Shown here: in pieces, positions 244 to 34,749 of the stretch
How positions within the stretch are numbered: position 1 is the first letter of the stretch
How the letters are laid out: each line of letters opens with the position of its first letter
DNA from: an uncultured Bacillota bacterium
Lineage (GTDB): Bacteria; Bacillota_I; Bacilli_A; Culicoidibacterales; ZOR0006
Assembly: GCA_945956935.1 (NCBI GenBank)
Contig: CAMFJD010000017.1
Span: 1-36,574 of the forward strand
Reading direction: 5' to 3'
Length of the DNA stretch: 36,574 bases
The notes under the pieces: model-generated
What the model was told of the DNA's origin: nothing
What the model saw: only the letters and a program-made list of their open reading frames with translations
The model's database searches: none
Translations under genes and position numbers: made by a program

Positions 244-309
244 TGGAACGAAAATGGAACGAAAATGGAATAAAAATGGAACGTTTGCACATAAAAAATA
301 CAGTAAACT
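244..309 (+). promoter_or_regulatory. TGGAA-repeat promoter, site 1
   Basis: Four direct repeats TGGAAC/T-N5 start at 244, 255, 266 and 277, exactly 11 bp apart. A -10 hexamer TAAACT begins at 304, 27 bp after the start of the last repeat. There is no -35 consensus; the last repeat occupies that position. This is the layout expected for an activator whose monomers bind one face of the helix next to RNA polymerase. A strong Shine-Dalgarno sequence lies downstream at 337-346 with no open frame behind it. Confidence 0.75.
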
Positions 310-5117: not shown

Positions 5118-5183
5118 TGGAATAAAAATGGAACGTTTTTGGAATAAAAATGGAACGTTTACCTAGAAATTGTAAGTTAAACT
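5118..5183 (+). promoter_or_regulatory. TGGAA-repeat promoter, site 2 (secretion operon)
   Basis: Repeats at 5118, 5129, 5140 and 5151 (11-bp period), -10 TAAACT at 5178, 27 bp after the last repeat start. It drives the operon that begins at 5217; the Shine-Dalgarno AAAGGAGG lies at about 5200. Confidence 0.8.
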
Positions 5184-5604: not shown

Positions 5605-5979
5605 ATGGGAAATAAAATAGGTTTTTTAACAGGATTAACGATTTTTCTTTTATTTGCAGTACCAATGTTTTTAGAAATTCAAAAGACACAAGTAACAGCT
5701 TCATCTATCCAACAATTAGCGCAAGAAGTTGTAATTTTAACCGAGACAGAAGGTGGATTATCAAGTCGTGTAAATGATTTGATTGCAAAAAACGAAGCGC
5801 ATTATGCGAAAACAAATATGGATTTAGATGTTAGTGTCAGTGAATCATCTGGTGGTACATTAGCAGCAAAGGCACAACCTTCAACTGAATTTGAAGTCAA
5901 TGTCAGTGTGAGTTATTCAGCATGGTTTAAAGAAAACAAAATGGCTTCACGCGCATCAGGAATTATTATGAAACGATAG
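5605..5979 (+). CDS. Second small membrane-anchored pilin-like protein
   Basis: A 124-residue protein with an N-terminal membrane helix (about residues 6-22) followed by an extracytoplasmic domain rich in serine and acidic residues. Length and topology match the preceding product, and the two are probably paired pseudopilin-like subunits. The start ATG lies behind a GTAACAAGTG-type weak ribosome site, and the gene is spaced 7 bp from its neighbour, consistent with translational coupling. It ends at TAG 5977-5979, immediately before the ATPase gene. No specific family is recognised. Confidence 0.68.
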   Translation: MGNKIGFLTGLTIFLLFAVPMFLEIQKTQVTASSIQQLAQEVVILTETEGGLSSRVNDLIAKNEAHYAKTNMDLDVSVSESSGGTLAAKAQPSTEFEVNVSVSYSAWFKENKMASRASGIIMKR

Positions 5980-5988
5980 GTGAAGAAA

Positions 5989-7173
5989 ATGCAAAATACA
6001 ATGGAACAAAAATTACGAGCAATTGTCGATACAAGCTTTTTAGGTGTTTATCTTGGTGAAGATTCGCATATAACTGATATCAGCTACAACGGAAAAGAAT
6101 TGTATGTGCAAGATAACTTGACTGGTCGAAGAAAAGAAAATGTCATGATAACCTATGTTGAAGAAACAGAAGAAAATGGACATTTGTTTAAGGAAAGCAA
6201 GCAACGTCCACTATCGAGTAATGATGTTGAATTATTTATTCGCAAAATTGCCGATCAATGTGGGAAGCCATTTACGACAGAAGAGCCGATTTTAGATACA
6301 GAAGTCGCTGAATTGCGGATTAATGCCGTACATAGTGCTGTGTCACCTTTTGGAGTTACTTTGGCTGTGCGTGTATCAAAACCACGTTTAAGTATTACAA
6401 ATCCAACGGATTTAGCGCCCAAAGAAGTAATTGACTTGCTCAATACACTTGTTAAAAGTGAATCAAATATTGTTATTTCTGGAAAAACAGGGTCTGGAAA
6501 AACCGAATTTCAAAAGTATTTAGTAGGATCAATTCCAGATAACTCAAAAATATGTTTGTTAGAAGATACAATGGATTCACACTTGAAAATATTATATCCA
6601 AGTAAAGATATCAACTCTTGGAGAACACTTACTGCTGAAAGTCGTGAAGAATCAAAAAGGATTTATTATTCGTCACTGATTAAAGCTGCTCTACGGAATA
6701 ATCCAGATTTTGTGATTGTAGCTGAAAGTCGTGGTTCAGAAGCCTATGATATGCTTCAGGCGGCACTAACTGATCATGCGATTATTACAACCCTACACGC
6801 AAACGGAGCAACCGCAATCCCATCACGATTAATGAGTATGATTCGTCAAGAGTATACAGTTTCTGATGCTGTGCTAGGTAAAGATATTGTAGATACATTG
6901 AAAATAGGTATTCATTTGGCTTATGAACAAGTACCTCTTGATAATGGTGAATATTTATTTAAACGATATATTCGTGAAGTTGTCGAATTTCAAGATTATG
7001 ATATTCATACTGGTGTCCAATACAATATGTTATATCAGCGGAAAAAGGAATATATTGACGGAAAATATGAAACAACTGCACATTTTGGGAAGCTATCATC
7101 AACGCTAATTCAGCGCATTAAAGATTATGAAACATATCATGAACTTCCTGAAATTTTCAAAGGAGGAGAGTAA
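5989..7173 (+). CDS. CpaF/TadA (VirB11-type) secretion ATPase
   Basis: A 394-residue cytoplasmic hexameric ATPase of the type II/IV secretion family. It shows the Walker A motif GKTGSGKT at about residues 165-172, an acidic Asp-box region (LLEDTMDS), the Walker B/PDFVIVAESRG segment and the His box TTLHANGA. These ATPases power pilus or pseudopilus assembly through TadB/TadC-type membrane platforms, which follow here. I prefer the ATG at 5989 to the GTG at 5980: the AGGTGA at 5978-5983 is a proper Shine-Dalgarno sequence for 5989, while the GTG lies inside it. The next gene starts 4 bp after the stop, with GGAGGAG in the end of this frame. The family call is firm; whether it serves a Tad-like or a VirB11-like function is open. 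Confidence 0.93.
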   Translation: MQNTMEQKLRAIVDTSFLGVYLGEDSHITDISYNGKELYVQDNLTGRRKENVMITYVEETEENGHLFKESKQRPLSSNDVELFIRKIADQCGKPFTTEEPILDTEVAELRINAVHSAVSPFGVTLAVRVSKPRLSITNPTDLAPKEVIDLLNTLVKSESNIVISGKTGSGKTEFQKYLVGSIPDNSKICLLEDTMDSHLKILYPSKDINSWRTLTAESREESKRIYYSSLIKAALRNNPDFVIVAESRGSEAYDMLQAALTDHAIITTLHANGATAIPSRLMSMIRQEYTVSDAVLGKDIVDTLKIGIHLAYEQVPLDNGEYLFKRYIREVVEFQDYDIHTGVQYNMLYQRKKEYIDGKYETTAHFGKLSSTLIQRIKDYETYHELPEIFKGGE

Positions 7174-7176
7174 TTT

Positions 7177-8019
7177 ATGGCGAAACAAAACGCTAAACTT
7201 AAACCACGACAAACAATACAGGAACGATTAGAACAGTTGAAAGAAACAACCCACGAAATCAACCATTCCTATTTTGTTGGTAAATTCCAAGATGAAATGA
7301 AAGCTATCGAACAAGATGTAAAATGGTATCACTATTTTCTTTGGCTATTGTTATTTACAGTACTTGGCGCAGTATATGTGTATATCTTATCAGCTAATTT
7401 TTGGTTATCATTAGTAACCGGATTTATCTTATCATTTTTTGCGATTCAAACCTTTGCGGTATTACCGAAAAAACATCAGTATCGCTTAGATACATTAAGT
7501 GAATTGAATAATTATGCTTCAACTGTTGTATTCAATCTTGAAGCCGGAGAAAATCCATATAATGCATTGCAAATGACAACGCAATATTTGCGTGAACCAG
7601 TACTTTCAGAGGTTCAAAAAACAGTAGAAATTTTAGAAGAAACAGCAGAACTAGATACAGAACATATGAAACAATATCGGTTTGCGCCATTAGATATTTT
7701 TCATCAGACTCTTGCAATCAAACGTGATCAAGGTGGAAATGCTAAAGTCTTGTTTGATAACACACTCGATAGTTTGAACTTTTATGTCGTGAAACATGAT
7801 GAACTTTCAAAACGTAAAAAATATGTTCGAAAACAAATTTTTATGATTATGGCGATTGCAGGAGCAATTCCATTAGTAGTCCGCTATGCTGCTCCAAATG
7901 AATTTTTGATTTTCCAAGAGAATATCTTTGGTCAAATAATGGCGGTAGTCGTACTTATTTTATTTTTTGTTTTAGCTGCAAAGACACAACGTGAAGCACT
8001 TGAACTTGATTTAATTTAG
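7177..8019 (+). CDS. TadB-like inner-membrane platform protein (T2SSF family)
   Basis: A 280-residue membrane protein: a soluble N-terminal helix-rich part (1-50), two membrane segments at about 52-95, a cytoplasmic four-helix-type domain (about 105-215), and two more membrane segments at about 220-272. This is the layout of the type II secretion F / TadB family, whose members form the platform moved by the CpaF ATPase. A strong Shine-Dalgarno (GGAGGAG) lies 7 bp before the ATG, inside the end of the preceding gene. The following gene has the matching layout of TadC, so the pair forms the platform. The family is assigned from topology and order rather than from strong motifs. Confidence 0.78.
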   Translation: MAKQNAKLKPRQTIQERLEQLKETTHEINHSYFVGKFQDEMKAIEQDVKWYHYFLWLLLFTVLGAVYVYILSANFWLSLVTGFILSFFAIQTFAVLPKKHQYRLDTLSELNNYASTVVFNLEAGENPYNALQMTTQYLREPVLSEVQKTVEILEETAELDTEHMKQYRFAPLDIFHQTLAIKRDQGGNAKVLFDNTLDSLNFYVVKHDELSKRKKYVRKQIFMIMAIAGAIPLVVRYAAPNEFLIFQENIFGQIMAVVVLILFFVLAAKTQREALELDLI

Positions 8020-8031
8020 AAAGGAGAACAT

Positions 8032-8721
8032 ATGGAACTTTTATTAGAAAAAAACAAAGAACTCTACTTAAATTATTTTAAATATGATCCAAAAGAATTT
8101 CGCTTTTATCGAATAAAGCAAGGTGTTCTGTTAGGAATTGTTTTAGGAATTTTTTCAATCTTATTCGGTGAAGCATTATTATATCTCGTGATGCCTCTAG
8201 GCGGCTTCCTTATTGGATATAAATATCCATACCAACAAATGATGGCAAATAAAAAACGTGATGAAATTATGCGTGGCTATATGTTCCCAACATATTTGAA
8301 AAACTTTTTAAATATTTTAGAAACTAATGGGAATGTTTATCAAACATTTGTTGAAAGTATTAAATATACGGATGAACCATTGAAAACAGCAGTGCAAGAA
8401 ATGGTAGCAGCAATTGAAATTGATAAAACACAACGTCCATATATTGAGTTTGCAAACTATGTTGGTAGCCAAGAAGCAAATCAAATTATGGGTGTTATCT
8501 ATCAATTCACGACTGTTGGACTAGATACGACAAAACTTCGTAAATTGAATGAAACAGTCGATAAACTACAAGAAAATAAAATTAATGAAATGATTTCTTA
8601 CAAAGTAACGAATCTTGAACGATTTTCAAATTTTCCAGTTATTGTTACATTACTATACACAATGAGCTTTGTAGGAACATTATTATTTATCCATTTCAAT
8701 AATGTATTAGAAATGTTATAA
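8032..8721 (+). CDS. TadC-like inner-membrane platform protein (T2SSF family)
   Basis: A 229-residue protein with membrane helices at about 30-62 and at the C terminus (about 202-223), enclosing a cytoplasmic helical domain. This is the usual form of the second T2SSF/TadC platform subunit. It is shorter than the preceding TadB-like protein and is separated from it by 12 bp containing AAAGGAG. The gene between it and the VirB6-like gene is only 11 bp away, so these Tad-like genes are physically part of the conjugation operon. The assignment rests on topology, size and order. Confidence 0.77.
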   Translation: MELLLEKNKELYLNYFKYDPKEFRFYRIKQGVLLGIVLGIFSILFGEALLYLVMPLGGFLIGYKYPYQQMMANKKRDEIMRGYMFPTYLKNFLNILETNGNVYQTFVESIKYTDEPLKTAVQEMVAAIEIDKTQRPYIEFANYVGSQEANQIMGVIYQFTTVGLDTTKLRKLNETVDKLQENKINEMISYKVTNLERFSNFPVIVTLLYTMSFVGTLLFIHFNNVLEML

Positions 8722-8732: not shown

Positions 8733-10343
8733 ATGTTTGATTGGTTATTCGACTTTATACAGAATTTAATCTGGAATGGAGTATATGCAATTGTAGGGAT
8801 GACAAATGAGATGTGGTCGGGTGTGTATTCCCTTACTTCTACAAAGTCGCTAACAACAATACTTGATTTAGAAGTTATTCGACAAGTAGTAGTAGCAACA
8901 ACGACCTTAGGTGGTGTTTTAATAGCGCTAGTCTTTGCAGTCACAATGATTAAAAATATCATTGAATTGGACGGACAACAAAATACAATTGTGTATCGGA
9001 GAACATTATTTGCTGTCATTTGGATGTTTATGTCAGTAGCAGTATTTCAATACTCTGTACCAATTGTAGGTTATTTAACACAAGCTGCCGTATCTATTAG
9101 TGGTACTCCAAGTGAAGGGACTTTAGATTTTTCTACAAATATTGCTTCTAGTTTATTAGCTCAATCTACAAGTAATCCAACTAAATACCAGCCAGAGATT
9201 CACAAACAAATTCAAGATGGTAGTTTTGATGCATCTATACGATGTGAAGATTCAAAAGGTATTTGTCCAAGCGGAACAGATGAAAAAGCATATGTATTCA
9301 GTTTAGGAAAAATGTTGGTAATTGGGCTATTAACATTTATCGTATCATTTTTAACATTAATAGTCGGAGTTCAAGTTGCAAGGCGACTTTTGGAAACGGT
9401 AGTTTTAAAGACACTTGCCCCACTGTGCGCATCAAGTTGGATTTCAGATGCACAAGCACAAAGAGCGAGAACATGGCAAAAAATGTCGGTAGGTGTTTTA
9501 CTCGCAACAGCAGGACAATTATTTGCGATATCAATAGGTGTCGTTGTCTTATCACAACTGAATACTGTTATTGATGGCACTGGTGGCGCATTTGTGTATG
9601 GCTATGTACTTCTCGTAATTGGGATTATGTTATTTATCATATTTACTCCTAACACAATTAACACACTTGTAGATGGTCAAACATCAATATCTGAAGGTTT
9701 ACAGGAACTTGTTGCACTTGGAAGTGCTTCAAGTGCAGCAAGAAATCTTGGCGGTATGGCAACTGGAGTTGGCGGAGCAATTGGAGGAGCTATGGGTGGT
9801 ATGGCAGCTATGGGTGGTAATACACTATCTAAAATGGCGACAGGTCAGAGCTTATCAGCACTTTCAGCAAATGCTCAAAAGGCATTTGGATCAGGTGGTG
9901 GTAGTGGATTAGGTGGATCATCAACAGGAACACCATCAAGTAATTCACCATCAGGTGGTGCAGTAGGAGAAGCAACAACTGGTTATACTACGAATCCAAC
10001 AAGTGGTACACAAACAACGAATGCTTCTACACCACCATTATCATCAGCAACAGGAATGATTCCTAATATGGTAAATACAGCAAGTGCAATGACAAACTCT
10101 TTTGTTCAATCAGGTGGTGGAATGAATGGAGTTGTATCAGCCACTCGCACAGGAGCTAACGCAATTGGAGGAGCAACAACTGGTGCATTTAAATCTGTTG
10201 CCAATCGTGTTGGTGAGCGGACTGGCTTAAATAAAGTATCAAATACTGTTAAATTTGGATCTATGTTAGCATACGCTCAAATGGCAAGTAATGGCATTGG
10301 AAGCGCAAATGCACCTAAAGGTGGAGCTGATACAGGAGCGTGA
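8733..10343 (+). CDS. VirB6/TrbL-like polytopic conjugation protein (CD3337/EF1877 type), ended by an in-frame TGA
   Basis: A 536-residue protein with about five membrane helices (about 52-77, 90-115, 195-217, 255-278, 285-310) followed by a glycine/serine/threonine-rich cytoplasmic or low-complexity tail. This is the form of the TrbL/VirB6-like mobilome membrane proteins of Gram-positive conjugative elements, which form the membrane channel with VirB4. The Shine-Dalgarno AAGGGGG precedes the ATG. The frame stops at TGA 10341-10343 but then continues open in the same frame for 187 codons to 10904, and the sequence beyond the stop is a diverged copy of the tail before it. The complete protein was therefore probably about 723 residues. 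Either the tail is lost in this copy or the TGA is read through. Confidence 0.85.
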   Translation: MFDWLFDFIQNLIWNGVYAIVGMTNEMWSGVYSLTSTKSLTTILDLEVIRQVVVATTTLGGVLIALVFAVTMIKNIIELDGQQNTIVYRRTLFAVIWMFMSVAVFQYSVPIVGYLTQAAVSISGTPSEGTLDFSTNIASSLLAQSTSNPTKYQPEIHKQIQDGSFDASIRCEDSKGICPSGTDEKAYVFSLGKMLVIGLLTFIVSFLTLIVGVQVARRLLETVVLKTLAPLCASSWISDAQAQRARTWQKMSVGVLLATAGQLFAISIGVVVLSQLNTVIDGTGGAFVYGYVLLVIGIMLFIIFTPNTINTLVDGQTSISEGLQELVALGSASSAARNLGGMATGVGGAIGGAMGGMAAMGGNTLSKMATGQSLSALSANAQKAFGSGGGSGLGGSSTGTPSSNSPSGGAVGEATTGYTTNPTSGTQTTNASTPPLSSATGMIPNMVNTASAMTNSFVQSGGGMNGVVSATRTGANAIGGATTGAFKSVANRVGERTGLNKVSNTVKFGSMLAYAQMASNGIGSANAPKGGADTGA

Positions 10344-10904
10344 AGAGCAAATAACGCAAATGATTCGATATCACCGACACAAAAAAGCAATTCAAAGCAA
10401 ACAAATACTTCAACATATGGAAATCCAAGTATAAACGCATCTCATGTTTCACGCAGTATGCATCAAGAAAGCTCTAATGTTAATAAAGAAGTAAATGCTC
10501 AAAAAGCATTTGGTGTAGTGGGAGGAGCAACAGGTTATACGGTGAATCCAATGAGTGGCACACGAACAACCATTGGTTCGCTATCTCCACTATCATCATC
10601 CACACAAAAAAGCAACTCACTTTCAAAGCAAACAAATACTTCCGCATATGGAAGCTCAAGTATGCAATTACCTAATATATTAGACAGTACGAATCAAGCA
10701 ATTACTAGCATTAATAAAAGAGTAAACAATTTATCCTTGAAACGCAATGCAGAATATGGCGCAATAAGCAATACGATAAAGCCTACATTCCATACAACAA
10801 CAGGAAAAGATGGATTGCCAAAAGTGGAAGTGAAGAATCAAAGAGAATGGATAAATACGTTAGATTCAATTAAAGGAACAAATGAGAAGAGAGGAGGGAT
10901 CTAA
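10344..10904 (+). pseudogene. Detached C-terminal tail of the VirB6/TrbL-like gene
   Basis: The reading frame of the preceding gene continues without interruption from 10344 to the TAA at 10902-10904. An ATG at 10458 could start a 148-residue product, but no Shine-Dalgarno sequence precedes it (the bases before it are TTTCACGCAGT), so it is not a convincing independent gene. The tail repeats the low-complexity pattern seen before the stop (NAQKAFG, TGYT-NP-SGT, PPLSS-type segments) and contains two copies of a QKSN...SKQTNTS motif. The stop of this tail overlaps the start of the PrgI-like gene, as expected if the long protein was the ancestral form. Confidence 0.75.
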
Positions 10905-11251
10905 TGGAATTTATTTGTGTTATTCCAAAGGATTTACGAGTAAAACAAGAAATTTTATTAGGGCGAGATTTAAAAGAAATCGGTATAGTTGCTGGAGCTT
11001 CATTAGCTGGTTTCTTATTAGGTATAACACTCGGACTTGGTAATACAATTGTCGGAGTAATTGGTCTAGCTATTGGCTTGCTGATATCTGGTTTAATTAC
11101 TCAACCGATTACAGCAAAACAAAATACATTGTCATACTATAGAATTATTCGTAGCTATTATAAGTCACAAAAGATTTATAAAACTGCGCCACTATCTATG
11201 CATATTGTACGAGAAAATATAGAAAAAACTGTAGATATTGAAGAAAAATAG
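10904..11251 (+). CDS. PrgI-like / TcpE-like small membrane conjugation protein
   Basis: A 115-residue protein with a short soluble start (VIPKDLRVKQEILLGRDLKEIG), a double membrane hairpin at about residues 27-70 and a basic cytoplasmic tail. This matches the PrgI family of Gram-positive type IV secretion, found directly upstream of the VirB4 ATPase, as here. The ATG overlaps the TAA of the upstream frame, and AGAGGAGG is the ribosome site. About 70 bp with a stem-loop separate it from the VirB4 gene. Confidence 0.85.
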   Translation: MEFICVIPKDLRVKQEILLGRDLKEIGIVAGASLAGFLLGITLGLGNTIVGVIGLAIGLLISGLITQPITAKQNTLSYYRIIRSYYKSQKIYKTAPLSMHIVRENIEKTVDIEEK

Positions 11252-11322: not shown

Positions 11323-13131
11323 ATGCAATATGATTTTAAAGATGAAATTAGTCCACGTTCTATTCAGTTTGGTCCACGACAAATTCAATTTTCAGGAAAA
11401 GATGCGCAAGTAATGTATATTAGCGCATATCCAACAACAGTTCCAAATATTGGTTGGCTGTCATCTTTCGCTGCTGAACATGGTATTGATATGACGTTAG
11501 GAATTGAAAAAATGAATCGCTTTACAGCAAAACAATTGTTAGATCGTGCTGTTCGTGAAACAAATGCCAAAAAACATTTAAATGGCGGACTATCAGATTC
11601 GGTTCGCTTGGAAAAAGAATTAGAAATGCAAATGTATTTAGTCAATGAAATGGATACGAAAAATGAGGAAATGGTACTTGCTTCACCAATGTTCTTAATT
11701 TCAGGAGAAGATTCTGAAGAATTACGTCAAAAGCGAATGCAATTAACCAATATACTTTCACAACATAATATGACAGTTCAAACGCTTGTATACCAGCAAG
11801 AAGAGTTGTTTAAACAGTATTTACCAACGAGTTTCTTCGGTGTGACAAATCAAATCAGCCGTATTATGCCCACAAAGTCATTAGCTTCATCATACCCATT
11901 AATCTTTGATTCTTTACAAGATGCTAGCCAATCAGATAATTTATCAACGATGTATTTAGGAAAAGACAGTAGTGGTGGGAATGTATTTTTAAATCAATTC
12001 TCAAATCTAGCTGAAACAGGTAATAAAAATGTTAAACGTACAAATGGAAATATGGTTATCTTAGGTAACTCTGGATCTGGTAAATCAACATTGGCAAAAA
12101 AACTAATGACAATGCAGAACTTACAAAAAACAAAAATCATTGTTATTGATCCAGAACGTGAATATAAAGAATTATGTGAAAATTTGGGTGGTGAATGGAT
12201 TGATGCAGCATCAGCACATGGGGTAACAATTAATCCACTAGAAATTCAAAAAAGTGATGATGAAAATGTAGAGGAAGTTTCTGTACGAGCATACTTACCT
12301 ATTTTACGAAAATTAGGAGCAATTCTCTTCCGTTTAGATCAATATACAGAAACATTATTTGAACGTGCGTGTCGTGAAACCTATTGGGAGTTTGGAATAA
12401 ATGATGATACTGATTTGTCACAACTTAAATCAGTTGATTATCCGACTTTTTCTGATGTTTTGACAACAATTAAAAAAATCCTTCAACAAGATTTATCAGT
12501 CGAAGAAAAATCAGGATATGAAAAAATAAAAACTTTTTTGGACAACCTTGTATATGGTGCTGAAGGTCGCATGTGGAATCAGCCGACAACGCTTAAATCA
12601 GATTCAGATTTTATTGTATTGGATATTCATTCACTGTTAGATACAGATGAACGATTACGCAATGCGCAAATGTACTTATTATTAGGATGGGCATGGACAC
12701 AATTAGCCAAAGATAGAAACGATACGCAAGCGAGAAAAATGTTGTTTATTGATGAAGCCCATTTACTTATTGATCCGCAGTACACACATTCATTAGATTT
12801 CTTGCGAGCAACTATTAAACGTGCCAGAAAATATAATGCAGCGGTTGTCACAATCACACAACAAATTGAAGATTTCTTTTATGAAGATATCAAGAAATAT
12901 GGTGAGGCATTATTTGAACAAAGTACCTATGTATTTATCGGAAAACAGTCACCGAAAGGTGTAAATACACTTACTCACATTATGGAGTTATCGCAATCAG
13001 AACGAGATCGCTTACAATACCCAAGTCGTGGTCAATTTTTACTCTCAATTACAAATGATAGACGAATGGAAGTACATTTGCGAGTTGATAAATTTGAATT
13101 AGATTTATTTGGGAAAGGTGGAGGAAGATAG
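11323..13131 (+). CDS. VirB4-type conjugation ATPase
   Basis: A 602-residue cytoplasmic ATPase that energises type IV secretion. The C-terminal two thirds hold the RecA-like motor: Walker A GNSGSGKST at 248-256, Walker B MLFIDEAHLL with D477/E478, and the later TITQQIEDF segment typical of VirB4/TraE proteins. It is shorter than classical VirB4 (about 800 residues) because the N-terminal domain is reduced, as in other Gram-positive members. It lies between the PrgI-like and TrsD-like genes, the standard order, and its stop overlaps the next start by one base. The family call is firm. Confidence 0.95.
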   Translation: MQYDFKDEISPRSIQFGPRQIQFSGKDAQVMYISAYPTTVPNIGWLSSFAAEHGIDMTLGIEKMNRFTAKQLLDRAVRETNAKKHLNGGLSDSVRLEKELEMQMYLVNEMDTKNEEMVLASPMFLISGEDSEELRQKRMQLTNILSQHNMTVQTLVYQQEELFKQYLPTSFFGVTNQISRIMPTKSLASSYPLIFDSLQDASQSDNLSTMYLGKDSSGGNVFLNQFSNLAETGNKNVKRTNGNMVILGNSGSGKSTLAKKLMTMQNLQKTKIIVIDPEREYKELCENLGGEWIDAASAHGVTINPLEIQKSDDENVEEVSVRAYLPILRKLGAILFRLDQYTETLFERACRETYWEFGINDDTDLSQLKSVDYPTFSDVLTTIKKILQQDLSVEEKSGYEKIKTFLDNLVYGAEGRMWNQPTTLKSDSDFIVLDIHSLLDTDERLRNAQMYLLLGWAWTQLAKDRNDTQARKMLFIDEAHLLIDPQYTHSLDFLRATIKRARKYNAAVVTITQQIEDFFYEDIKKYGEALFEQSTYVFIGKQSPKGVNTLTHIMELSQSERDRLQYPSRGQFLLSITNDRRMEVHLRVDKFELDLFGKGGGR

Positions 13132-13862
13132 TGTTAAAAAATCTATTTAATAAACAAAAAAAAGACGAACAAAAGAAAATTATTGAACAAAAAAATGCAC
13201 AAGACTGGCAACCATATGACCGAGTCGAAAATAATGTACTCTATACAAAAAACAATGAAATTGTGATGTTTTTACAATTGAGTGCCAGAAATATTACCCT
13301 CCTTTCATACGAACAACAGATTGGAGAATTACTAGCATTTTCAAGTGTTATTCAAGCTTTAGATGTTCCTTGTAAATTTCATTCACTGTCGATGCCTATT
13401 GATGTAAAGGATTATATTTCAGGATGGAATCGGCATTTGGAAACAGAATCAAGCGATAAAAAGCAAGAATTAATAAAACGATATTTACAACAAGGCATAC
13501 AGTTAAGTCAAAGTGGAGAATTTAATCGTGAATTTTTCTTGAGTATATATGAAAAATCAGGGAATGAAATTGAATTAGATAAAAAAATTAGACAAATTCA
13601 AAATGAGTTTGGGAGAACTGGACTATCAACTACAGTGTGTAATAACACAAAGATTACTCAAATACTAACAAAAATCTTCAATCCAGATGAGGTGAAATGG
13701 GTAGAAAATAGTCAGGCAATTATGAATATTGCTGATCATGACTTTATTGCTGAAATTCCAAGAGTAAAAGAACTAGAAACAGAAGTGAAAAACCTTGAAA
13801 CTGAAATAGCTCATTTAAAGGCGATGAATCAACGAGCTATTTTCAAAGAAAATCATGCTTAG
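13131..13862 (+). CDS. TrsD/TraD-like conjugation protein
   Basis: A 243-residue protein, probably cytoplasmic. The N-terminal 150 residues (WQPYDRVENNVLYTK..., RNITLLSYEQQIGELLAF, SLSMPIDVKDYISGWNRHL) look like the small TrsD/TraD family encoded next to VirB4 in Gram-positive transfer operons, which resembles a detached VirB4 N-terminal domain. The last 30 residues form a heptad-like coiled coil (VKELETEVKNLETEIAHLKAM). The start codon is GTG, overlapping the VirB4 TAG by one base, with GGAGGAAG upstream inside VirB4. It overlaps the next gene by 8 bp, so the three are translationally coupled. Confidence 0.75.
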   Translation: MLKNLFNKQKKDEQKKIIEQKNAQDWQPYDRVENNVLYTKNNEIVMFLQLSARNITLLSYEQQIGELLAFSSVIQALDVPCKFHSLSMPIDVKDYISGWNRHLETESSDKKQELIKRYLQQGIQLSQSGEFNREFFLSIYEKSGNEIELDKKIRQIQNEFGRTGLSTTVCNNTKITQILTKIFNPDEVKWVENSQAIMNIADHDFIAEIPRVKELETEVKNLETEIAHLKAMNQRAIFKENHA

Positions 13863-14132: not shown

Positions 14133-14145
14133 GTATGAATGAAAT

Positions 14146-14200
14146 TGGAACGTTTTTGGAATAAAAATGGAACACATGAAGTTCGAAAATCTTTTAAGAT
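14146..14200 (+). promoter_or_regulatory. TGGAA-repeat promoter, site 3 (tagged-protein operon)
   Basis: Repeats at 14146, 14157 and 14168 with an 11-bp period (a degenerate fourth may lie at 14135). -10 TAAGAT at 14195, 27 bp after the last repeat start. The first gene begins at 14239 behind AAAAGGAG. Confidence 0.78.
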
Positions 14201-14238: not shown

Positions 14239-15234
14239 ATGAAAGAATTTTTAAATGAAAACGGAAACACCTATCAAATTATCCATGAATTTGAATTTAA
14301 AGGAAATACACAAGCGGTATTATATCAACCAGAGATGAATCAATACGTATATGCAAATGGATTGAAACAAGATTATTGGGGAACAGGAAATTATTTTTCA
14401 AATGATAAAGATCGTGCTATCCAATATTTTGAAGAAAAAGTAACAAGTGTAATTATTGGACAGATGGTTGAAGAAGCACAGGAATATTTACCGAAAATGG
14501 CATTTAATAATTGTGTTATTGAAAACGGAGAATCTATGGGATGGATTGAAAAAGATGGATTCCAAGACGAATTTACAGTTTATTTTGAGAAGTCTGGACT
14601 TGAATTAACTCAAGAGTTACTAGAACAAGTATGGAAATCATTTCCTGATGAACTGGTATGCGAACAATTTCTAGATATTTCAATCGAAAATGGAGATATC
14701 AATGTTATCGTTGGGTATGACTATCTGTATGATAATGAAATTGGTATGAATCTGGGAGAAGTATCACAAAAAGTTTTACAGAATGAGTTAACTGTAGATG
14801 AAACGGTGCAATATTTTGAGTATTATTCATCATATGCCGATGTAACAGATGAAATGGTATTAAGCTCTTTACATGTAGATAAAGCTGTACCGAAGCTGAC
14901 AGAACAATTAAAAGCCTTTCCAGATCAAGATATTGAATATGCAAAAGCAAAATATCCAGACGTGCCAATTATCGCAATTCAAAGTGCATATGATGATAAT
15001 TTTACAAATGCGAATTTGATTGAAGATCGCTATATGAAATTATTTGAATTGGCTAATGATATTGATACACCTGAACATGTTTTACAAGAATTAGCAGCAA
15101 TGGATTTAGACGGTATTAGCGATGAAGCAATTATGAATCAGAATTACGATGTTACAAAAGATTTATATGAATTTTGTGATGTAACAGAAGAAGAAGTAAA
15201 GAATCAGAGTAAAAACCAAAATATTGAACGATAA
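14239..15234 (+). CDS. Unknown soluble protein with the shared FC-x-V-T...ER C-terminal tail
   Basis: A 331-residue, very acidic soluble protein without signal peptide or membrane helix. I recognise no domain. The central part (about 100-190) reads as a mixed alpha/beta fold, and the C-terminal third is helical, with one stretch (IDTPEHVLQELAAMD) resembling half an LRV-type repeat. It ends in FCDVTEEEVKNQSKNQNIER, the first of six similar tails in this region. It opens the operon behind TGGAA site 3 with a good Shine-Dalgarno (AAAAGGAG). The tail and the position after a type IV secretion operon suggest a protein delivered during mating, which is inference. Confidence 0.78.
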   Translation: MKEFLNENGNTYQIIHEFEFKGNTQAVLYQPEMNQYVYANGLKQDYWGTGNYFSNDKDRAIQYFEEKVTSVIIGQMVEEAQEYLPKMAFNNCVIENGESMGWIEKDGFQDEFTVYFEKSGLELTQELLEQVWKSFPDELVCEQFLDISIENGDINVIVGYDYLYDNEIGMNLGEVSQKVLQNELTVDETVQYFEYYSSYADVTDEMVLSSLHVDKAVPKLTEQLKAFPDQDIEYAKAKYPDVPIIAIQSAYDDNFTNANLIEDRYMKLFELANDIDTPEHVLQELAAMDLDGISDEAIMNQNYDVTKDLYEFCDVTEEEVKNQSKNQNIER

Positions 15235-15247
15235 GGAATGTATAAGA

Positions 15248-15460
15248 ATGAAAGCATACGATTTTGCAAAGCTTATTGCAGTAAATAGCGAAAAAAAAGA
15301 AGTTATTGTTTTTTACAATAATGAAATTATTGAATTACAATGTCTTGATGCAGCAACACTTTGTTTATATCAAGAAGAGTTATTAGATGACAACCCAATC
15401 TTTGTACCATTTAACGAAGATACAAAGATGGTAATTATGCTAGAGGAAGGTGATTTTTAA
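15248..15460 (+). CDS. Small unknown protein of the tagged-protein operon
   Basis: A 70-residue acidic protein (MKAYDFAKLIAVN...EEGDF) without a recognised domain. I chose the ATG at 15248, which has AAGGA about 9 bp upstream, over an in-frame TTG at 15224 that overlaps the preceding gene and lacks a ribosome site. Its stop TAA overlaps the start ATG of the ArdC-like gene by one base, so the two are translationally coupled. It lacks the FC-x-V-T tail of its neighbours. By its coupling it may be a partner of the ArdC-like protein. Confidence 0.68.
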   Translation: MKAYDFAKLIAVNSEKKEVIVFYNNEIIELQCLDAATLCLYQEELLDDNPIFVPFNEDTKMVIMLEEGDF

Positions 15461-16506
15461 TGGCAAAATATACAAAAAAAACATATGAAGAAGTACAAGA
15501 GTCAATTAAAAACACTCTTGCTGAAACCAACAAGAAAATTCAAACGTATTTTGATGATCCACAAAAACTTCTTGAGCTTTTTGATTTTATGGATGGGTTT
15601 TACAATTACTCAACTCGAAATATGGTACTAATTCAAAATCAATACAGTGGTGCAAAAGCAGTTGCACCATTTGCAGTGTGGCAAAAAGAATATGATTGTA
15701 GTGTGCAGAAGGGTCAAAAAGCAATTAATATCCTTGTTCCACAAAAATATAAATTGTATGAAGTAAAAAAAGATACTTATGTAACATACAGTCGTGCAAC
15801 AGATGAACAAAAAGAAAAAATTCAACAGAATCAATATCCTTATAAAGAGCGAACAAGCTTTACTTTTGGTAAAGTATTTGATATTACTCAAACAAATTTT
15901 CCAAAAGAAAAATACCCTGAATTATACCCAAACCGACATATTGGTGGTGATGTGAATAATTTCGAAGCAATCTATGGTGCAGTGAAGAATCTTGTTGCCA
16001 GCAAAAATATTACCTTTGCGGAGTTCGATTTAACAACTGGATCTACAAGTAAGGGGTATGTCAAAGATGATGGTGAAATGAATGAAATTCATTTGAATCC
16101 ATACAATACACAGACAGAAAATATTTTGACGACACTACATGAATTAGCACACACACAACTACATAAAAATACGAGTTTAGATCGTGGTCTAATGGAATAC
16201 CAAGCTGAAATGGTATCATATTTGACAGCAAAGCATTTTGGTTTAGAGCATGAACAAAAAAGCATTCAATATATTGCGAATTGGGCAAAAGGTAAAAAAG
16301 TTGAAGAACAAGTCCAAGTTATTGATGAAGTAAGAAAACTTACACAGGACTTTATTCAATTTTTAGAGCCAGAATTGGCGCACTTATTACAAAAAGAAGT
16401 AGAAAAAGATATGGTTGCAGAAGAAGGCTTTGATTTGTATTCATTTTGTGATGTGAGCGAAGAAGAAGTGAAAGAGGCTGTTCAAAGCCAAGAGCAAGAA
16501 CGATAG
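15460..16506 (+). CDS. ArdC-like antirestriction protein with zinc metallopeptidase motif and shared C-terminal tail
   Basis: A 348-residue protein. The N-terminal 130 residues match the ArdC-like single-stranded-DNA-binding domain (NMVLIQNQYSGAKAVAPFAVWQK, then QKGQKAINILVP). The C-terminal domain carries the metallopeptidase motif HELAH at 227-231. ArdC of the IncW plasmid pSa protects incoming single-stranded DNA and is known to enter recipients with the transferred strand. Here the protein ends in FCDVSEEEVKEAVQSQEQER, the same tail as five neighbours. It is coupled to the 70-residue gene before it and followed 15 bp later by the next tagged gene. Its presence beside two R-M systems fits a plasmid built to pass restriction barriers. 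The domain call is firm; delivery is inferred. Confidence 0.9.
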   Translation: MAKYTKKTYEEVQESIKNTLAETNKKIQTYFDDPQKLLELFDFMDGFYNYSTRNMVLIQNQYSGAKAVAPFAVWQKEYDCSVQKGQKAINILVPQKYKLYEVKKDTYVTYSRATDEQKEKIQQNQYPYKERTSFTFGKVFDITQTNFPKEKYPELYPNRHIGGDVNNFEAIYGAVKNLVASKNITFAEFDLTTGSTSKGYVKDDGEMNEIHLNPYNTQTENILTTLHELAHTQLHKNTSLDRGLMEYQAEMVSYLTAKHFGLEHEQKSIQYIANWAKGKKVEEQVQVIDEVRKLTQDFIQFLEPELAHLLQKEVEKDMVAEEGFDLYSFCDVSEEEVKEAVQSQEQER

Positions 16507-16521
16507 GAGGGAGTTATAAAA

Positions 16522-18342
16522 ATGGAGCATGTAAAGAAAACGTTGTTTAATAAATTCGTAGAAGAGGGAAGCAGCAAATTAATATCAAATCTCACTAATA
16601 TGTCAAATCTACGACGAATTTCAGGAAGTGAAGAAACATTTGAACAAGTCCTAAATTTACTGGAACAACAAAGTTTTGAGCTTGGACTCAACACGACAAC
16701 CAATATTCAGGCAATCAATGATTATTTAATTGCGAATCAGTTTTTTCCAGAAACAGAAATCGAAGCGATTGCAACGAATAAAACCTACACTATTGAAGCT
16801 TTCAAAACAATTTTTAAAGAATTAGAATATGATACACTTACTAAGTTTGCGAAATATAGTCAGAATGAAACCGTAATAGATTATATTGCAGAAAAAATGA
16901 ACACCTCAAATAAACATTTAGAAACACTTTTTAGTGCTATGGCACGAAATCCATATACTTCAAACGGTACATTAAATGAATTGGCTACTTTTCCAGCTGT
17001 AAAAGTACGTTTAAATGTGTTGAATAATCCGAACACCTCGATTGATACCTTAGTAAAAATGGCAAAAACTGATTCATATGAACCAATCATTGATCAACTC
17101 GCACAAGATGAAGAAGCTATGATCCGTTATGCAGTAGCCGAAAATTCTAAGTTACCAGAAATGAAAGATGTTCTAGTAACAATTGCTTACCAAGATGACG
17201 ATGAGTTAAAACAAATTTTGAATGAAAACAAAGTTATTAGAGATTTAGGCTTGATGACACCAAAAACATTTCATCGTCTTGATAATGCAGTCGTTCAAGA
17301 AGCGAGATTTACCTTGTTTGTTGATGCATATGCACCAGAATTGAATGAGTTAATGAGTACATATGCTATTCCTGTTGAGTCGCATATAGAAGCAGCGAAA
17401 TTCATTCAAAAAGAAGTACAGGAGTTTGCGCTTTGGAACAACTTAGGGTTGGTTGATGTGGAATATAAGAGTATGCATGCTTTATGTAATGCAGAATTTA
17501 ACCTAGTTGATTTTGAATTAGAGGGTGATCCAGAGTTTACTGAAGAAATCATTGACAATTTCAATGTGGTTATTAATGAACTGAAATCAATGTTACTTGA
17601 AACATTTAAAGGAATACAATCAGTTGAAGAAGCGGAATCATTAACTGACTTAGCTAAACAGTTGGAAGATAGTGAGTATTCCATCTTTGATTCAGAAAAT
17701 AAACCTTATTACGATATAATGCTTAAATGTAATAAAATAGTTTCTAAAATTTTATTAGAAGAAGGGGTGATTTCAGATGAGCGTTTAGATCAATTGAGTG
17801 GTAGTTATAAATTAGATGTTTTACATAATTACTGTGTCTATAATGATGAATTTTTTGAAACATATCATACAAAATCGGGTGAGTGTTTGGAAATTCATAC
17901 AATTAATTTAGATGATAATGAATTTTATGTTTTTTTTGATGAAAGCTGTGGGGAATGTGCTGAAATCCACCTTTTTGCAACTCGTGAAAAAGTTGATAAA
18001 TTTTTAAAAACAAAAGATCCTCTAGAAGTTTATCAAGACCAATTAATTGAAGAATTTAAAGGATTACTTGCTGATGATGTTAGACCATATGTTGATGTAT
18101 TTGTTTCAGCTGATTCAGATGACTTGTTAAACTATAGTTTTGACATATCCTTGCGTAATGAAAACAACCGAGTTGATGAAATCTATCTTAAACAACCTAA
18201 TTTAACACCGGAGTTAGTTCTAGTGATCGAAAAAGCAGTTGAAAAGTTATTAAACAATTCAAAAGCTACTAATGATATCATGGATTTTTGTAATGTAACA
18301 ATGGAAGATGTGAAATCATTTAATCAAAATCAAGAGCGGTAA
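16522..18342 (+). CDS. Large unknown protein with degenerate helical repeats and the shared C-terminal tail
   Basis: A 606-residue acidic, soluble protein. Residues of about 70-250 contain degenerate helical repeats of the LRV/HEAT type (for example ARNPYTSNGTLNELA, LNNPNTSIDTLVKMA and YAVAENSKLPEMKD). The remainder is acidic with no recognised domain. It ends in FCNVTMEDVKSFNQNQER. The Shine-Dalgarno AGGAGGGAG precedes the ATG. The next gene, a protein made almost wholly of clearer LRV-type repeats with the same tail, follows 5 bp later. Repeats of this type usually bind proteins or nucleic acids; the actual target is unknown. Confidence 0.78.
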   Translation: MEHVKKTLFNKFVEEGSSKLISNLTNMSNLRRISGSEETFEQVLNLLEQQSFELGLNTTTNIQAINDYLIANQFFPETEIEAIATNKTYTIEAFKTIFKELEYDTLTKFAKYSQNETVIDYIAEKMNTSNKHLETLFSAMARNPYTSNGTLNELATFPAVKVRLNVLNNPNTSIDTLVKMAKTDSYEPIIDQLAQDEEAMIRYAVAENSKLPEMKDVLVTIAYQDDDELKQILNENKVIRDLGLMTPKTFHRLDNAVVQEARFTLFVDAYAPELNELMSTYAIPVESHIEAAKFIQKEVQEFALWNNLGLVDVEYKSMHALCNAEFNLVDFELEGDPEFTEEIIDNFNVVINELKSMLLETFKGIQSVEEAESLTDLAKQLEDSEYSIFDSENKPYYDIMLKCNKIVSKILLEEGVISDERLDQLSGSYKLDVLHNYCVYNDEFFETYHTKSGECLEIHTINLDDNEFYVFFDESCGECAEIHLFATREKVDKFLKTKDPLEVYQDQLIEEFKGLLADDVRPYVDVFVSADSDDLLNYSFDISLRNENNRVDEIYLKQPNLTPELVLVIEKAVEKLLNNSKATNDIMDFCNVTMEDVKSFNQNQER

Positions 18343-18347
18343 TAGAC

Positions 18348-18977
18348 ATGAGCGAATATAGTTATGAATTTTTATATGAAAAAGCAAAAAGTTTTGATGA
18401 TGAAGATAGAATAGCAGCTGCCTATTTCAAAGATACACCGAGTGATATCTTAGCTTTATTATCAAAAGATAATGATGATGCAGTACGTCAAGCGGTAGCG
18501 ATGAATGAATCAGCAACAGATGATATCATTGAATATTTACTAAGTGACTGTGATGAACGTGTGAGAGAAGCAATTGCGATGCGTGAAAATGTAACATCTG
18601 AAATGCTATGGAAACTAGCAACAGATGAAATTGAAGCAGTAAGGATAGTGGTTGCTTCTAATGCTAATACCCAAACTGAAATATTAGAGGCGCTTGCTAA
18701 TGATGAAGTTGAAGATGTACGAGAAGCAGTAGCAGCTAATAAAAAAAGTTCAGTTGAATTTTTAGAATTTTTATCAAATGATGAAGAGGAATTTGTTCGT
18801 CTAAGTGTTGCTAAAAACGAGAATTGTCCTAATTATATTTTGAAATATCTCTCGAATGATAGCTGTTCAAAGGTAGGGCAAACTGCAAGTAATCATTTAA
18901 TTAATCAGTTAATGGATTTTTGTGGAGTCACACTTGATGATATCAGCCAAACAATGAATCAACAACAGGAACGATAA
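18348..18977 (+). CDS. LRV/HEAT-type repeat protein with the shared C-terminal tail
   Basis: A 209-residue protein built of about five 26-residue repeats with the pattern VRxAVAxNxxxxxxxLxxLxxDxxxx (for example VREAIAMRENVTSEMLWKLA and VREAVAANKKSSVEFLEFLS). This matches leucine-rich-variant (LRV) repeats, which stack into a right-handed superhelix. The N-terminal iron-sulfur cysteine cluster of the Azotobacter prototype is absent. It ends in FCGVTLDDISQTMNQQQER. It is the last gene of the operon and a terminator follows. A peptide- or nucleic-acid-binding role is possible. The repeat class is well supported, the function is not known. Confidence 0.85.
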   Translation: MSEYSYEFLYEKAKSFDDEDRIAAAYFKDTPSDILALLSKDNDDAVRQAVAMNESATDDIIEYLLSDCDERVREAIAMRENVTSEMLWKLATDEIEAVRIVVASNANTQTEILEALANDEVEDVREAVAANKKSSVEFLEFLSNDEEEFVRLSVAKNENCPNYILKYLSNDSCSKVGQTASNHLINQLMDFCGVTLDDISQTMNQQQER

Positions 18978-18979
18978 TA

Positions 18980-19013
18980 TAAAAAAGAGAGCCGAAAAAA
19001 GGCTCTTTTTTTA
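18980..19013 (+). terminator. Terminator of the tagged-protein operon
   Basis: Stem AAAAAAGAGAGCC / GGCTCTTTTTTT with a short A-rich loop. The TGGAA repeats of site 4 start directly after it. Confidence 0.9.
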
Positions 19014-19079
19014 TGGAATAAAAATGGAACATTTTTGGAATAAAATCGGAATACATGCCATAAAATATTTTGTTACGAT
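19014..19079 (+). promoter_or_regulatory. TGGAA-repeat promoter, site 4
   Basis: Repeats at 19014, 19025, 19036 and 19047 (the last is CGGAAT), 11-bp period. -10 TACGAT at 19074, 27 bp after the last repeat start. It precedes the operon starting at 19114. Confidence 0.78.
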
Positions 19080-19113
19080 TTAATTGTAAAAAATAAAAAG
19101 GAGAATGAATACT

Positions 19114-20109
19114 ATGAAAAAGCAAATGAATGTAACAGATTATGTGGAAAGTAAAATCCCAAATTTAAGAAGTGATTTGAAATTTAATGAATTAGAGCAA
19201 TATATAATTCAAAAAACAGAAGTTTATGATGCTTTCTATGATGTATCAATTGGGTGTTCCAATTCTGAACATCAGGCAAATGAATATTTTCGGGATGATG
19301 TATATGAAAATTTAGCTTCTGTTTTTGAAATTGATTTAGATTTATATGTTGTAGAATTAGCAGATGAGGTTTTTTTGTTTGAAAATGACACAGACTACAT
19401 GAAATTTAAAAATACAGATGTAGATCATAAATTATATCATCTATCAACAATTTATTATGTCAATACAGAGAATCAAGATTATGTGGAAGCTGAATATGTT
19501 TTTGAGAGTAAAAATGAAGCAATTAAATTTGTTGATGAATTAGGTGAAGAATTTCAACCATATCCAACAATTGAATCTGAAATGGCATATTTCAAGAATG
19601 CGTTACTGCCTTCATTACAAAACAGAACAGATATAGAGGTACACAAAGAGTATAATAATGGTGGACATTTTCATAGCTATAATATTTATCTAGATAATAA
19701 CCTGATTGAAGATGGAGTATTTAAATTGGAAGCTGAATCATTTAGTAATGAAGTTGAAACGCTTGATGAATTAATTCAAAATTTAAATAGTAATTACAGT
19801 ATCAATTTAACTAATATTCAAAAGGAAAAACATAATTTTGAACGTTATTATAACTTTGATTTAAATAAAACATATGAATCGGATATGGGAGTATTTACAT
19901 TTACGCAAAATCACTCGATTCATATAAAAGGCGGTCAAGGTCAGCCGAGAACAACAATTGATACAATTTTGAACAATCTAGATATTGATTATATTATGTT
20001 GGAGTTTGATGATGCCTTCAAAGAAGAGATGAATGATCAAATCTCAATGTATGAGTTTTGCAATGTGACAGAGGATGATATTGCACAAATAAATCAAAAA
20101 GAACGATAA
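19114..20109 (+). CDS. Unknown acidic protein with the shared C-terminal tail
   Basis: A 331-residue soluble, strongly acidic protein rich in Asp, Glu, Asn and aromatic residues, with no signal peptide, membrane segment or recognised domain. I chose the ATG at 19114, which has AAGGAGA about 11 bp upstream, over the ATG at 19105, which lies too close to that site. Style and size resemble the first tagged protein (14239-15234), and both open an operon behind a TGGAA promoter, so they may be distant paralogues. It ends in FCNVTEDDIAQINQKER. The next tagged gene follows after 15 bp. Confidence 0.76.
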   Translation: MKKQMNVTDYVESKIPNLRSDLKFNELEQYIIQKTEVYDAFYDVSIGCSNSEHQANEYFRDDVYENLASVFEIDLDLYVVELADEVFLFENDTDYMKFKNTDVDHKLYHLSTIYYVNTENQDYVEAEYVFESKNEAIKFVDELGEEFQPYPTIESEMAYFKNALLPSLQNRTDIEVHKEYNNGGHFHSYNIYLDNNLIEDGVFKLEAESFSNEVETLDELIQNLNSNYSINLTNIQKEKHNFERYYNFDLNKTYESDMGVFTFTQNHSIHIKGGQGQPRTTIDTILNNLDIDYIMLEFDDAFKEEMNDQISMYEFCNVTEDDIAQINQKER

Positions 20110-20124
20110 AAGGGGGCTGATTGC

Positions 20125-20490
20125 ATGAAGAATACACCTGAAAATATTGCAAATAACCCTAATACACACTGGACAACGTTAGATGAACTTTCCACTAATA
20201 GCGATGCTACTGTACGCAATGCGATAGTAGAAAATGCGAATGCTTCTATATTGACTTTGGAAAGAATGGCAGTGCGAGAAACCGATGAAGCTGTTCTTCT
20301 TAAACTCTTATCCCATACCAATTCATTTGTTCGTCATGCCGCAATGTGTAATCCGAACATTGACGAAATGCCACTCGCTTTAAGTGTCATAAAGCAAATT
20401 GGTGATAATAATACGGATATAATGACCTTTTGTGATGTGACCAATGATGAATTATATGCAATCTTAGCAGATACAAGAACAGAAAGATAA
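20125..20490 (+). CDS. Short LRV-type repeat protein with the shared C-terminal tail
   Basis: A 121-residue protein with three degenerate LRV/HEAT-type repeats (NPNTHWTTLDELSTNSDATVR, IVENANASILTLERMA, and VRHAAMCNPNIDEMPLAL). It ends in FCDVTNDELYAILADTRTER, the most divergent of the six tails. The Shine-Dalgarno AAAGGGGG lies 9 bp upstream. It is a smaller relative of the 209-residue repeat protein at 18348-18977. It may act as an adaptor, but nothing in the sequence shows this. Confidence 0.78.
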   Translation: MKNTPENIANNPNTHWTTLDELSTNSDATVRNAIVENANASILTLERMAVRETDEAVLLKLLSHTNSFVRHAAMCNPNIDEMPLALSVIKQIGDNNTDIMTFCDVTNDELYAILADTRTER

Positions 20491-20507: not shown

Positions 20508-20729
20508 ATGGAATTATTTTTTATAACAAATTTAATTTGGTTTATTGCCGTTTCAATCTCTTTCTACCGATATAGATCTAACGCATTGAAACTGCATAAT
20601 ATGAACCAATTTCTTTTGAAAAGATTAGCAGATGAGCTGATAGAACATAACATTGATTCAATTATTGTAAATCGGATTGAGAAACGTGGGTTTTTCGAAG
20701 AATTTTCAAAACGAGAACAAAAATTATAG
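20508..20729 (+). CDS. Small single-pass membrane protein, unknown
   Basis: A 73-residue protein with an N-terminal membrane helix (about residues 3-20) and a charged cytoplasmic tail (KRLADELIEHNI...). It follows the tagged genes after 17 bp, with a modest ribosome site (GAGG). A second protein of the same layout is encoded 78 bp downstream, so they may be a pair. No family is recognised. Confidence 0.6.
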   Translation: MELFFITNLIWFIAVSISFYRYRSNALKLHNMNQFLLKRLADELIEHNIDSIIVNRIEKRGFFEEFSKREQKL

Positions 20730-25059: not shown

Positions 25060-25125
25060 TGGGATAAAAATGGAACGTTTTTGGAATAAAAATGGAACGA
25101 TTGACTTTGTTTTTGATAGTAATAT
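25060..25125 (+). promoter_or_regulatory. TGGAA-repeat promoter, site 5 (primase operon)
   Basis: Repeats at 25060 (TGGGAT), 25071, 25082 and 25093, 11-bp period. -10 TAATAT at 25120, 27 bp after the last repeat start. The first gene starts at 25167 behind GGGAGGA. Confidence 0.78.
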
Positions 25126-33977: not shown

Positions 33978-34005
33978 TTTAATTCTCAGCTACACCGTAA
34001 AATTC

Positions 34006-34749
34006 TTAAACATCCTGAATTAAATTATTGTTTGGAATATCATAATTCAATGTTTTTAAAACAATATCATATGGAACTATTTCAGAAGATGTATTTTTTC
34101 GAATAAAATCTAAATCATAATTATGGAGGTTATTTTCAATAAGTAATTTGAAAAGTTTAGTTGGATTTTCTGATTTGTAAAACTCTACTAGTTCTGCCTT
34201 ATATTCAATATCCTTAGTCGCATTCGGAGTTGGATATAAAATTCCGATATTATGTTCTAAAAAAACTTTATTTGCTAGTAAAAACGATGTCCTTTTATTG
34301 CAATTATTAAAAATGTGACCACGAGTAAAATAAGCAAAATATTGTAATCCTTTCGCAAAGGGATCTTCTATTTGATTCAATTGAAAAATTGCAGCTCTTA
34401 CATCAATTTCTTTAGGTAATTCTGGATACCAACGGGTATCATATTTATCTCGAACAAAGACTGTCCCTGTTCTAATTTGACCGGGGTGGTCATTTGTAGC
34501 ATCACTTACAATCGCATTTAGTAATGCAATATCTTCATAATAAAATTCTTTGCCTAGATTATTATATATGTATTCCCACGCTCGCTTTAAAGAAATAACT
34601 ACTTCAATATCACTTACAGAAATACTATCTACAGATTTTCCTTCTAGGATTCTTTCAGTTTCTGGAAATGTAGCAGCAATTCCTTCCGAAAAAGCTTGTG
34701 AGTAAATTATATCTTTTAAATATCTTTTCAAATATGATTTTGCATCCAT
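34006..34749 (-). CDS. Fic/Doc-family protein
   Basis: A 247-residue protein of the Fic fold. The active-site loop reads HIFNNCNKRT at 145-154, the Doc-like variant of HxFx(D/E)GNxR with the catalytic His kept, the usual acidic residue replaced by Asn and a Lys-Arg pair. The N terminus (SQAFSEGIAATF, about 17-28) resembles the inhibitory-helix motif S/T-x-x-x-E-G/N, shifted by one residue. Fic proteins transfer AMP, or phosphate in the case of Doc, to target proteins; the Asn in place of Asp/Glu makes the activity uncertain. AAGGAG precedes the ATG, and a terminator-like hairpin lies in the leader. No antitoxin gene is next to it. Plausible roles: stabilisation toxin with built-in inhibition, or host modulation. 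Confidence 0.85.
   Translation of the reverse strand: MDAKSYLKRYLKDIIYSQAFSEGIAATFPETERILEGKSVDSISVSDIEVVISLKRAWEYIYNNLGKEFYYEDIALLNAIVSDATNDHPGQIRTGTVFVRDKYDTRWYPELPKEIDVRAAIFQLNQIEDPFAKGLQYFAYFTRGHIFNNCNKRTSFLLANKVFLEHNIGILYPTPNATKDIEYKAELVEFYKSENPTKLFKLLIENNLHNYDLDFIRKNTSSEIVPYDIVLKTLNYDIPNNNLIQDV

Follow-up and report, generated by a model that had tools for sequence, protein, structure and literature searches.

The window, which is the whole 36,574-bp contig C17 (32% G+C) of a fish-gut Firmicute, carries the type IV secretion system (T4SS) genes of an integrated element, and behind them lie two operons encoding six proteins that end in the same short tail (Table 1). The parent genome comprised 1.84 Mb in 52 contigs and was estimated to be 99.8% complete. 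The six open reading frames (ORFs) and their tails had been predicted from the DNA alone, and all six were confirmed, positions included. In these proteins the tail had a core of [ILMV]-[YM]-x-F-C-[DNG]-V-[TS]-x-[ED]-[ED]-[VIL], then 6–9 residues and a final E-R, with a total length of 21–25 residues. The core agreed with the original prediction; the spacer, described there as 7–11 polar residues, was shorter and often Q/N-rich but not all polar.

Distribution and conservation of the tail

A weight matrix built from the six tails was scanned against 8,624 ORF C-termini (~94% of the genome), and two new proteins scored 32.6 and 33.3 bits, the next score being 14.9. When each window tail was held out in turn, the only ORFs matching its score were those of other tails, and BLOSUM62 scores between window tails reached 53, with shuffled tails scoring 29 at most. 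A chance origin of the tail was thus ruled out, and the matrix, the hold-out test and a comparison of the bodies bore out the claim of a constant C-terminal module on varied bodies.

An eight-tail profile searched against 149 genomes recovered five proteins from outside the profile (E = 2.5e-13 to 1.7e-4), two in the window's own genome and three in Firmicutes bacterium ZOR0006, the sole congener in the genome set; among these five, the tail of the congener Fic protein on contig C75 was nearly identical to one tail inside the profile. The known tails therefore number thirteen, of which the window's genome has 10 and the congener three. A 12-tail updated profile gave no further credible match in 395 genomes of the class and 392 of the phylum (overlapping sets), no plasmid or phage was matched by tblastn with the tail (short queries, of low power), and when 84,980 species genomes and IMG/VR were scanned for the DNA pattern, ZOR0006 was, among the matches listed, the sole genome with real tails. 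As far as searched, the tail is lineage-restricted, and the expected enrichment across Gram-positive plasmids was not seen: the tail was absent from all genomes searched outside the genus and from the plasmid and phage search. Profile searches of both carrier genomes and of the wider sets found it on no identifiable core-genome gene, a point in favour of the original prediction. The primase of the window (25784–27370), which ends EFEDVKSIAIQER, was considered as an extra member; it was recovered by no profile search and was hence left uncounted.

The carriers were ArdC, RadC, Fic (three), AbiEii toxin, LRV-repeat and very acidic proteins. As in ArdC, the ArdC-like protein of the window had an ArdcN domain followed by an M78-type metallopeptidase, with the tail as an addition; it was ~35% identical to ArdC of many Gram-positive plasmids. 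The ArdC proteins of other plasmids were without the tail, as was a chromosomal LRV-repeat protein of the window's own genome. That the bodies are unrelated held in so far as they are varied; LRV/HEAT-like repeats were, however, common to t606, t209 and t121. On contig C8 the tail was carried by a RadC-like protein, a 325-aa acidic protein (t325) and a Fic protein, and on contig C12 by a 100-aa ORF whose final residues were E-L-E, not E-R. Congener carriers were a Fic and an AbiEii protein adjoining an integrase, and a second Fic protein, which has a serine-type recombinase as neighbour and Tn916-like genes on the same contig. The bodies of t331, t606, t209, t334 and t325 had −9 to −13 net charges per 100 residues (5th percentile of the genome, −7.1) and may recall DNA-mimic antirestriction proteins, a likeness that no family match backs. 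No homologues of t331 and t606 were found in plasmids, and a search for related loci with ArdC as query gave nothing.

The Fic gene of the window (34006–34749, minus strand) encodes a tail-less protein 72% identical to the tailed C8 Fic over residues 1–255. The alignment crosses a premature stop, behind which a tail remnant was read in frame; judged by this alignment, the window Fic is a case of natural tail loss via a stop codon. Two tailed Fic types had Gln for the usual His of the Fic motif (SQVFNNCNKR, L089:11643-12443; NQLFWDGNKR, L157:6754-7512), and the tail-less window Fic retained the His (GHIFNNCNKR).

The congener genes for Fic and AbiEii had the tail DNA plus ~200 bp downstream in common (~88% identity), indicating that tails can move by recombination. 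This sharing, and the stop codon that removed the window Fic tail, would fit a 3′-end cassette spread by recombination and having little or no function of its own. Such a cassette is improbable: the window tails had diverged at silent sites with key residues kept, and the window genes had no obvious common DNA behind their stop codons. In the conserved columns of the six window tails pN was 0.11 and pS 0.46, indicating that the amino-acid sequence is what is retained.

A putative operator shared with the T4SS genes

In the sequence searched, a 40-bp putative operator, TGGAATAAAAATGGAACGTTTTTGGAATAAAAATGGAACG, with TGGAAY direct repeats of 11-bp period, occurred at seven sites (53–65 bits), all on the element and all at operon starts, namely those of the adhesin, T4SS pilin, CpaF-VirB4, RadC/t325, t331-ArdC-t606-t209, t334-t121 and primase operons. 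The next independent site scored 24 bits (window 31840) and the best outside the element 17 bits. Five of the seven sites lay 51–67 bp before a start codon, and the remaining two were 136 and 195 bp from the starts used. This common operator makes it very likely that expression of the T4SS and of most tailed proteins is turned on jointly, as one regulon predicted from the DNA. The T4SS genes have tailed genes on either side, and this neighbourhood and the operator upheld the predicted tie between the two. A small sigma-like/HTH protein (UPF0122-like, L158:8789-9193), encoded just ahead of the RadC-tail operon, is a candidate TGGAAY regulator.

The integrated element

Exact 55-bp overlaps joined the right end of C8 to C49 and C49 to the left end of C17. 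By this chain (C8-C49-C17), the genes for tailed RadC and t325 lie directly before the T4SS pilin gene on the same element. The C8/C49 part encodes a tyrosine-type integrase, RepA-like and ParM-like proteins, a 391-aa CpaE-like protein (named by position and sequence look, without a family match), tailed RadC and t325, a pilin (PF18895, weak), a lysozyme/M23 protein (on C49) and an LPXTG-type protein. In the window there follow the adhesin, pilin-like genes, CpaF, TadB/C-like, TrbL-like and PrgI-like genes, VirB4 and its N-terminal part, the tail operons, a FokI restriction-modification system, the primase, a second restriction-modification system, Fic and ParA. Both an integrase and a VirB4-based T4SS, two of the marks of an integrative and conjugative element, were thus present. 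Most carriers sit on this element or on relatives of it. C12 held an apparent deletion derivative, with a CpaE-like gene 92% identical, and the C8 Fic gene, just outside the integrase, may or may not be part of the element. The right end of C17 overlaps a repeat at C17:27996, leaving the right boundary of the element unplaced; the final 55 bases of the contig (36520–36574) recur there, within the 3′-terminal part of two RHH-type genes, as an assembly loop or a repeat.

Table 1. Features of the window and the integrase of the element (positions in C17 unless C8 is given)
Feature	Position	Strand	Remark
Putative operator	244..283	+	ahead of HTH/adhesin operon
Large secreted surface protein, probable adhesin	1415..5089	+	thioester-domain-like and ChW matches
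Putative operator	5118..5157	+	59 bp before T4SS operon
DUF4320/TadE-like pilin	5605..5979	+	weak match
CpaF/T2SSE-family ATPase	5980..7173	+	
TadB- and TadC-like membrane proteins, two ORFs	7177..8721	+	named by position beside CpaF; without confident family match
TrbL/VirB6-like channel protein	8733..10343	+	
PrgI/VirB3-like protein	10904..11251	+	weak match
VirB4 ATPase, Mbov_0397-like	11323..13131	+	NF045975, 2.4e-112, C-terminal two thirds of model
Separate protein matching N-terminal part of NF045975 VirB4 model	13131..13862	+	
Putative operator	14135..14174	+	64 bp before tail operon t331-ArdC-t606-t209
t331	14239..15234	+	very acidic, pI 4.05; without Pfam match
Tail of t331	15160..15231	+	DLYEFCDVTEEEVKNQSKNQNIER
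ArdC-like protein	15460..16506	+	ArdcN domain and M78/IrrE-type metallopeptidase
Tail of ArdC-like protein	16432..16503	+	DLYSFCDVSEEEVKEAVQSQEQER
t606	16522..18342	+	acidic; N-terminal part LRV/HEAT-like
Tail of t606	18274..18339	+	DIMDFCNVTMEDVKSFNQNQER
t209	18348..18977	+	acidic LRV-repeat protein; LRV 2.4e-13
Tail of t209	18906..18974	+	QLMDFCGVTLDDISQTMNQQQER
Putative operator	19014..19053	+	51 bp before tail operon t334-t121
t334	19105..20109	+	very acidic; no domain over its cut-off
Tail of t334	20044..20106	+	SMYEFCNVTEDDIAQINQKER
t121	20125..20490	+	small, HEAT/LRV-like
Tail of t121	20416..20487	+	DIMTFCDVTNDELYAILADTRTER
Putative operator	25060..25099	+	67 bp before primase operon
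Tail remnant behind window Fic gene	33979..34014	-	in-frame DV*EFYGVAEN*
Tyrosine-type integrase	C8:52468-53631		

VirB4 was split into two proteins whose order is reversed, the gene for the ATPase part preceding that for the N-terminal part (11323–13862). The FokI-type system (21115–24918) paired a double D12 methyltransferase with a FokI endonuclease homologue that is encoded convergently and has all four of the FokI domains in Pfam, and the second system (28375–31323) consisted of a MutH/Sau3AI-like endonuclease (minus strand) and a cytosine-5-methyltransferase-like gene (plus strand). No convincing gene was seen at 31590–32900, a candidate origin region with a 37-nt imperfect inverted repeat (32149–32233) and the weak operator copy at 31840. 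In both species, tandem repeats reading MWHKLHYFV.QECYKGST lay beside the integrase (L089:13607-13990, L156:5221-5622) and are possibly attachment or binding sites.

Proposed role of the tail

With belief and doubt in balance, we read the tail as a portable C-terminal signal for docking to this T4SS, which would deliver establishment and toxin-like proteins. As expected of a C-terminal T4SS signal, the same module stood on unrelated proteins and, in the window's genome, was linked genetically to a T4SS by adjacency and operator, a link that the congener shows not to be universal. By analogy, the tailed enzymes correspond to proteins known or proposed to pass between bacteria through a T4SS, and those of toxin families are of a sort injected by other conjugation systems. 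We infer that the tail, probably a short helical hairpin, would recruit unrelated soluble proteins to the T4SS of the element, and that one operator would switch on the T4SS, surface adhesin, primase and most tailed proteins jointly. The T4SS would then pass tailed proteins into a neighbouring cell, where ArdC, RadC and the very acidic, possibly DNA-mimicking proteins would protect the element and the Fic and AbiEii enzymes would serve as toxin-like effectors.

Several observations weigh against delivery by this T4SS. VirD4 (PF02534, PF12696) was not found genome-wide, and the coupling protein (VirD4/TcpA) typical of such systems was thus missing; on a related plasmid, PF02534 did detect VirD4, at 3e-52. 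The usual receptor for such signals is therefore missing, unless a Tn916-like FtsK-type ATPase serves. The relaxase PF03432 and MobP profiles were also negative in the genome, with other relaxase types not searched exhaustively and the right end of the element unplaced; with neither VirD4 nor a MOB_P relaxase found in the genome, the word "conjugative" in the original prediction was not supported. Neither the Fic genes nor the C12 ORF had the operator. The congener has three tailed genes, yet VirB4 of this family was not detected in its assembly (tblastn on part of the sequence); close RepA, ParM and integrase genes were present there, and much of the element was not found. Structure models predicted without homologues were of low confidence and are uninformative (t331, pLDDT 54, with a low-confidence helix-turn-helix-like tail; ArdC, pLDDT 35). 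Finally, ArdC had been called known to enter recipients, which is too strong: its entry was only proposed, for pSa, and in the case of R388 it is expression of ArdC in the recipient that is required, with export neither demonstrated nor excluded (PMC7213743).

A Tn916-like element of the same genome (C1, ~50–68 kb; L058/L059) carries a tet(M)-like gene, VirB4, the FtsK-type ATPase and a relaxase-like gene; none of its proteins had the tail. A related tet(M)-like fragment was seen on congener contig C67. The FtsK-type ATPase and the relaxase-like gene might act in trans, and some T4SSs work without a coupling protein, according to a 2025 review (PMC12857230). It is also possible, though we put it forward only tentatively, that a T4SS without its own coupling protein and relaxase has turned into a dedicated interbacterial protein injector, the 21–25-residue tag being read by another component.

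The missing VirD4 would also fit a tail that never leaves the donor and serves there as a docking tag for an element-encoded partner, such as a scaffold or membrane anchor, which would group anti-defence and toxin-like proteins without export. The same module pattern and co-regulation would result, and two small proteins, each with an initial hydrophobic stretch, are encoded directly after the t334-t121 operon (20508–20729, 20807–21001). We consider such a tag rather unlikely: there is no clear reason for ArdC, RadC, Fic and AbiEii to meet in one donor complex, and the congener has tailed genes where much of the element was not found and the partner may be absent with it.

A tail that binds a host factor, for example as a C-terminal degron for a host AAA+ protease or adaptor that keeps its carriers short-lived, would explain why the congener has tails although no VirB4 of this family was detected there, and anti-restriction and toxin-like proteins are plausibly of brief use. 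The tail end is charged (E-R), however, and SsrA-type ends are hydrophobic; moreover, no core-genome protein was found with the tail, and the common operator ties it to the T4SS genes. A host-factor role is accordingly unlikely. A C-terminal signal for another machine, such as a type VII system (YxxxD/E), is barely credible: Y-x-F-C-D in several tails fits YxxxD, but t606, t209, t121 and the Fic protein Fic2 are without the tyrosine. A type VII substrate was rejected on the further ground that a genome search for WXG100 proteins gave none, the Bacillus subtilis positive control being detected. Docking to the T4SS of the element remains the reading we prefer.

Comparison with known systems

Related VirB4, a CpaF-type ATPase, TrbL, a ParM-family partition protein and ArdC and/or JAB/Fic genes are found together on Exiguobacterium pEYLC1.2, Mycoplasmatota CP074574 and Sulfobacillus pY0017. 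Unlike the element described here, all three encode VirD4, and pEYLC1.2 also a MobP3 relaxase. By the same test they showed no comparable multi-protein tail, nor did any of the nine ArdC or VirB4 plasmids covered (three of them in part), where the few pairs above the null did not form multi-protein families.

The Dot/Icm E-block and Xanthomonas XVIPCD signals are likewise C-terminal, with acidic residues close to the terminus or a Q-rich terminus, and are read by coupling complexes. Coupling complexes of that sort were not found here, and the likeness is one of description.

In the F and pED208 systems, plasmid-encoded accessory proteins reach recipients via the conjugation T4SS; these systems are Gram-negative, and a common tail is not mentioned in the portions of the two reports considered (PMC8406263, PMC11288057). 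Effector secretion by a Gram-positive T4SS has been reported for Streptococcus suis 89K; as cited in the pertinent section of the review, that secretion is VirD4-dependent and into the medium, and the section describes no common tail (PMC12857230).

The known parallel is the Vbh T4SS of Bartonella, in which the Fic toxin VbhT is fused to a T4SS signal and conveyed by conjugation, and other toxin-antitoxin toxins have been recruited likewise (PMC5675462). There as here, one C-terminal module stands on Fic and other toxins of toxin-antitoxin type and is encoded with a conjugation-type T4SS. The Bartonella module, BID, is however a folded domain that also occurs on the relaxase; ours is a candidate signal, a 21–25-residue tail on 13 Gram-positive proteins in two genomes, with no tailed relaxase. 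Among the Pfam matches of the tailed proteins there was neither BID nor another Bartonella C-terminal family.

If the proposed role is correct, the tail would be part of a Gram-positive counterpart of VbhT-type delivery, suggesting that mobile elements carry protein protection along with their DNA. Whether Gram-positive T4SSs translocate proteins is a long-standing question, nearly all their known functions being in DNA transfer, as the section of the review on this point puts it (PMC12857230). The locus is of interest because that question is open and because the idea is directly testable here, with 13 proteins as candidate substrates, a short signal whose F-C-x-V core could be mutated, a probably co-regulated machine and, in the window Fic, an apparent natural case of tail loss.

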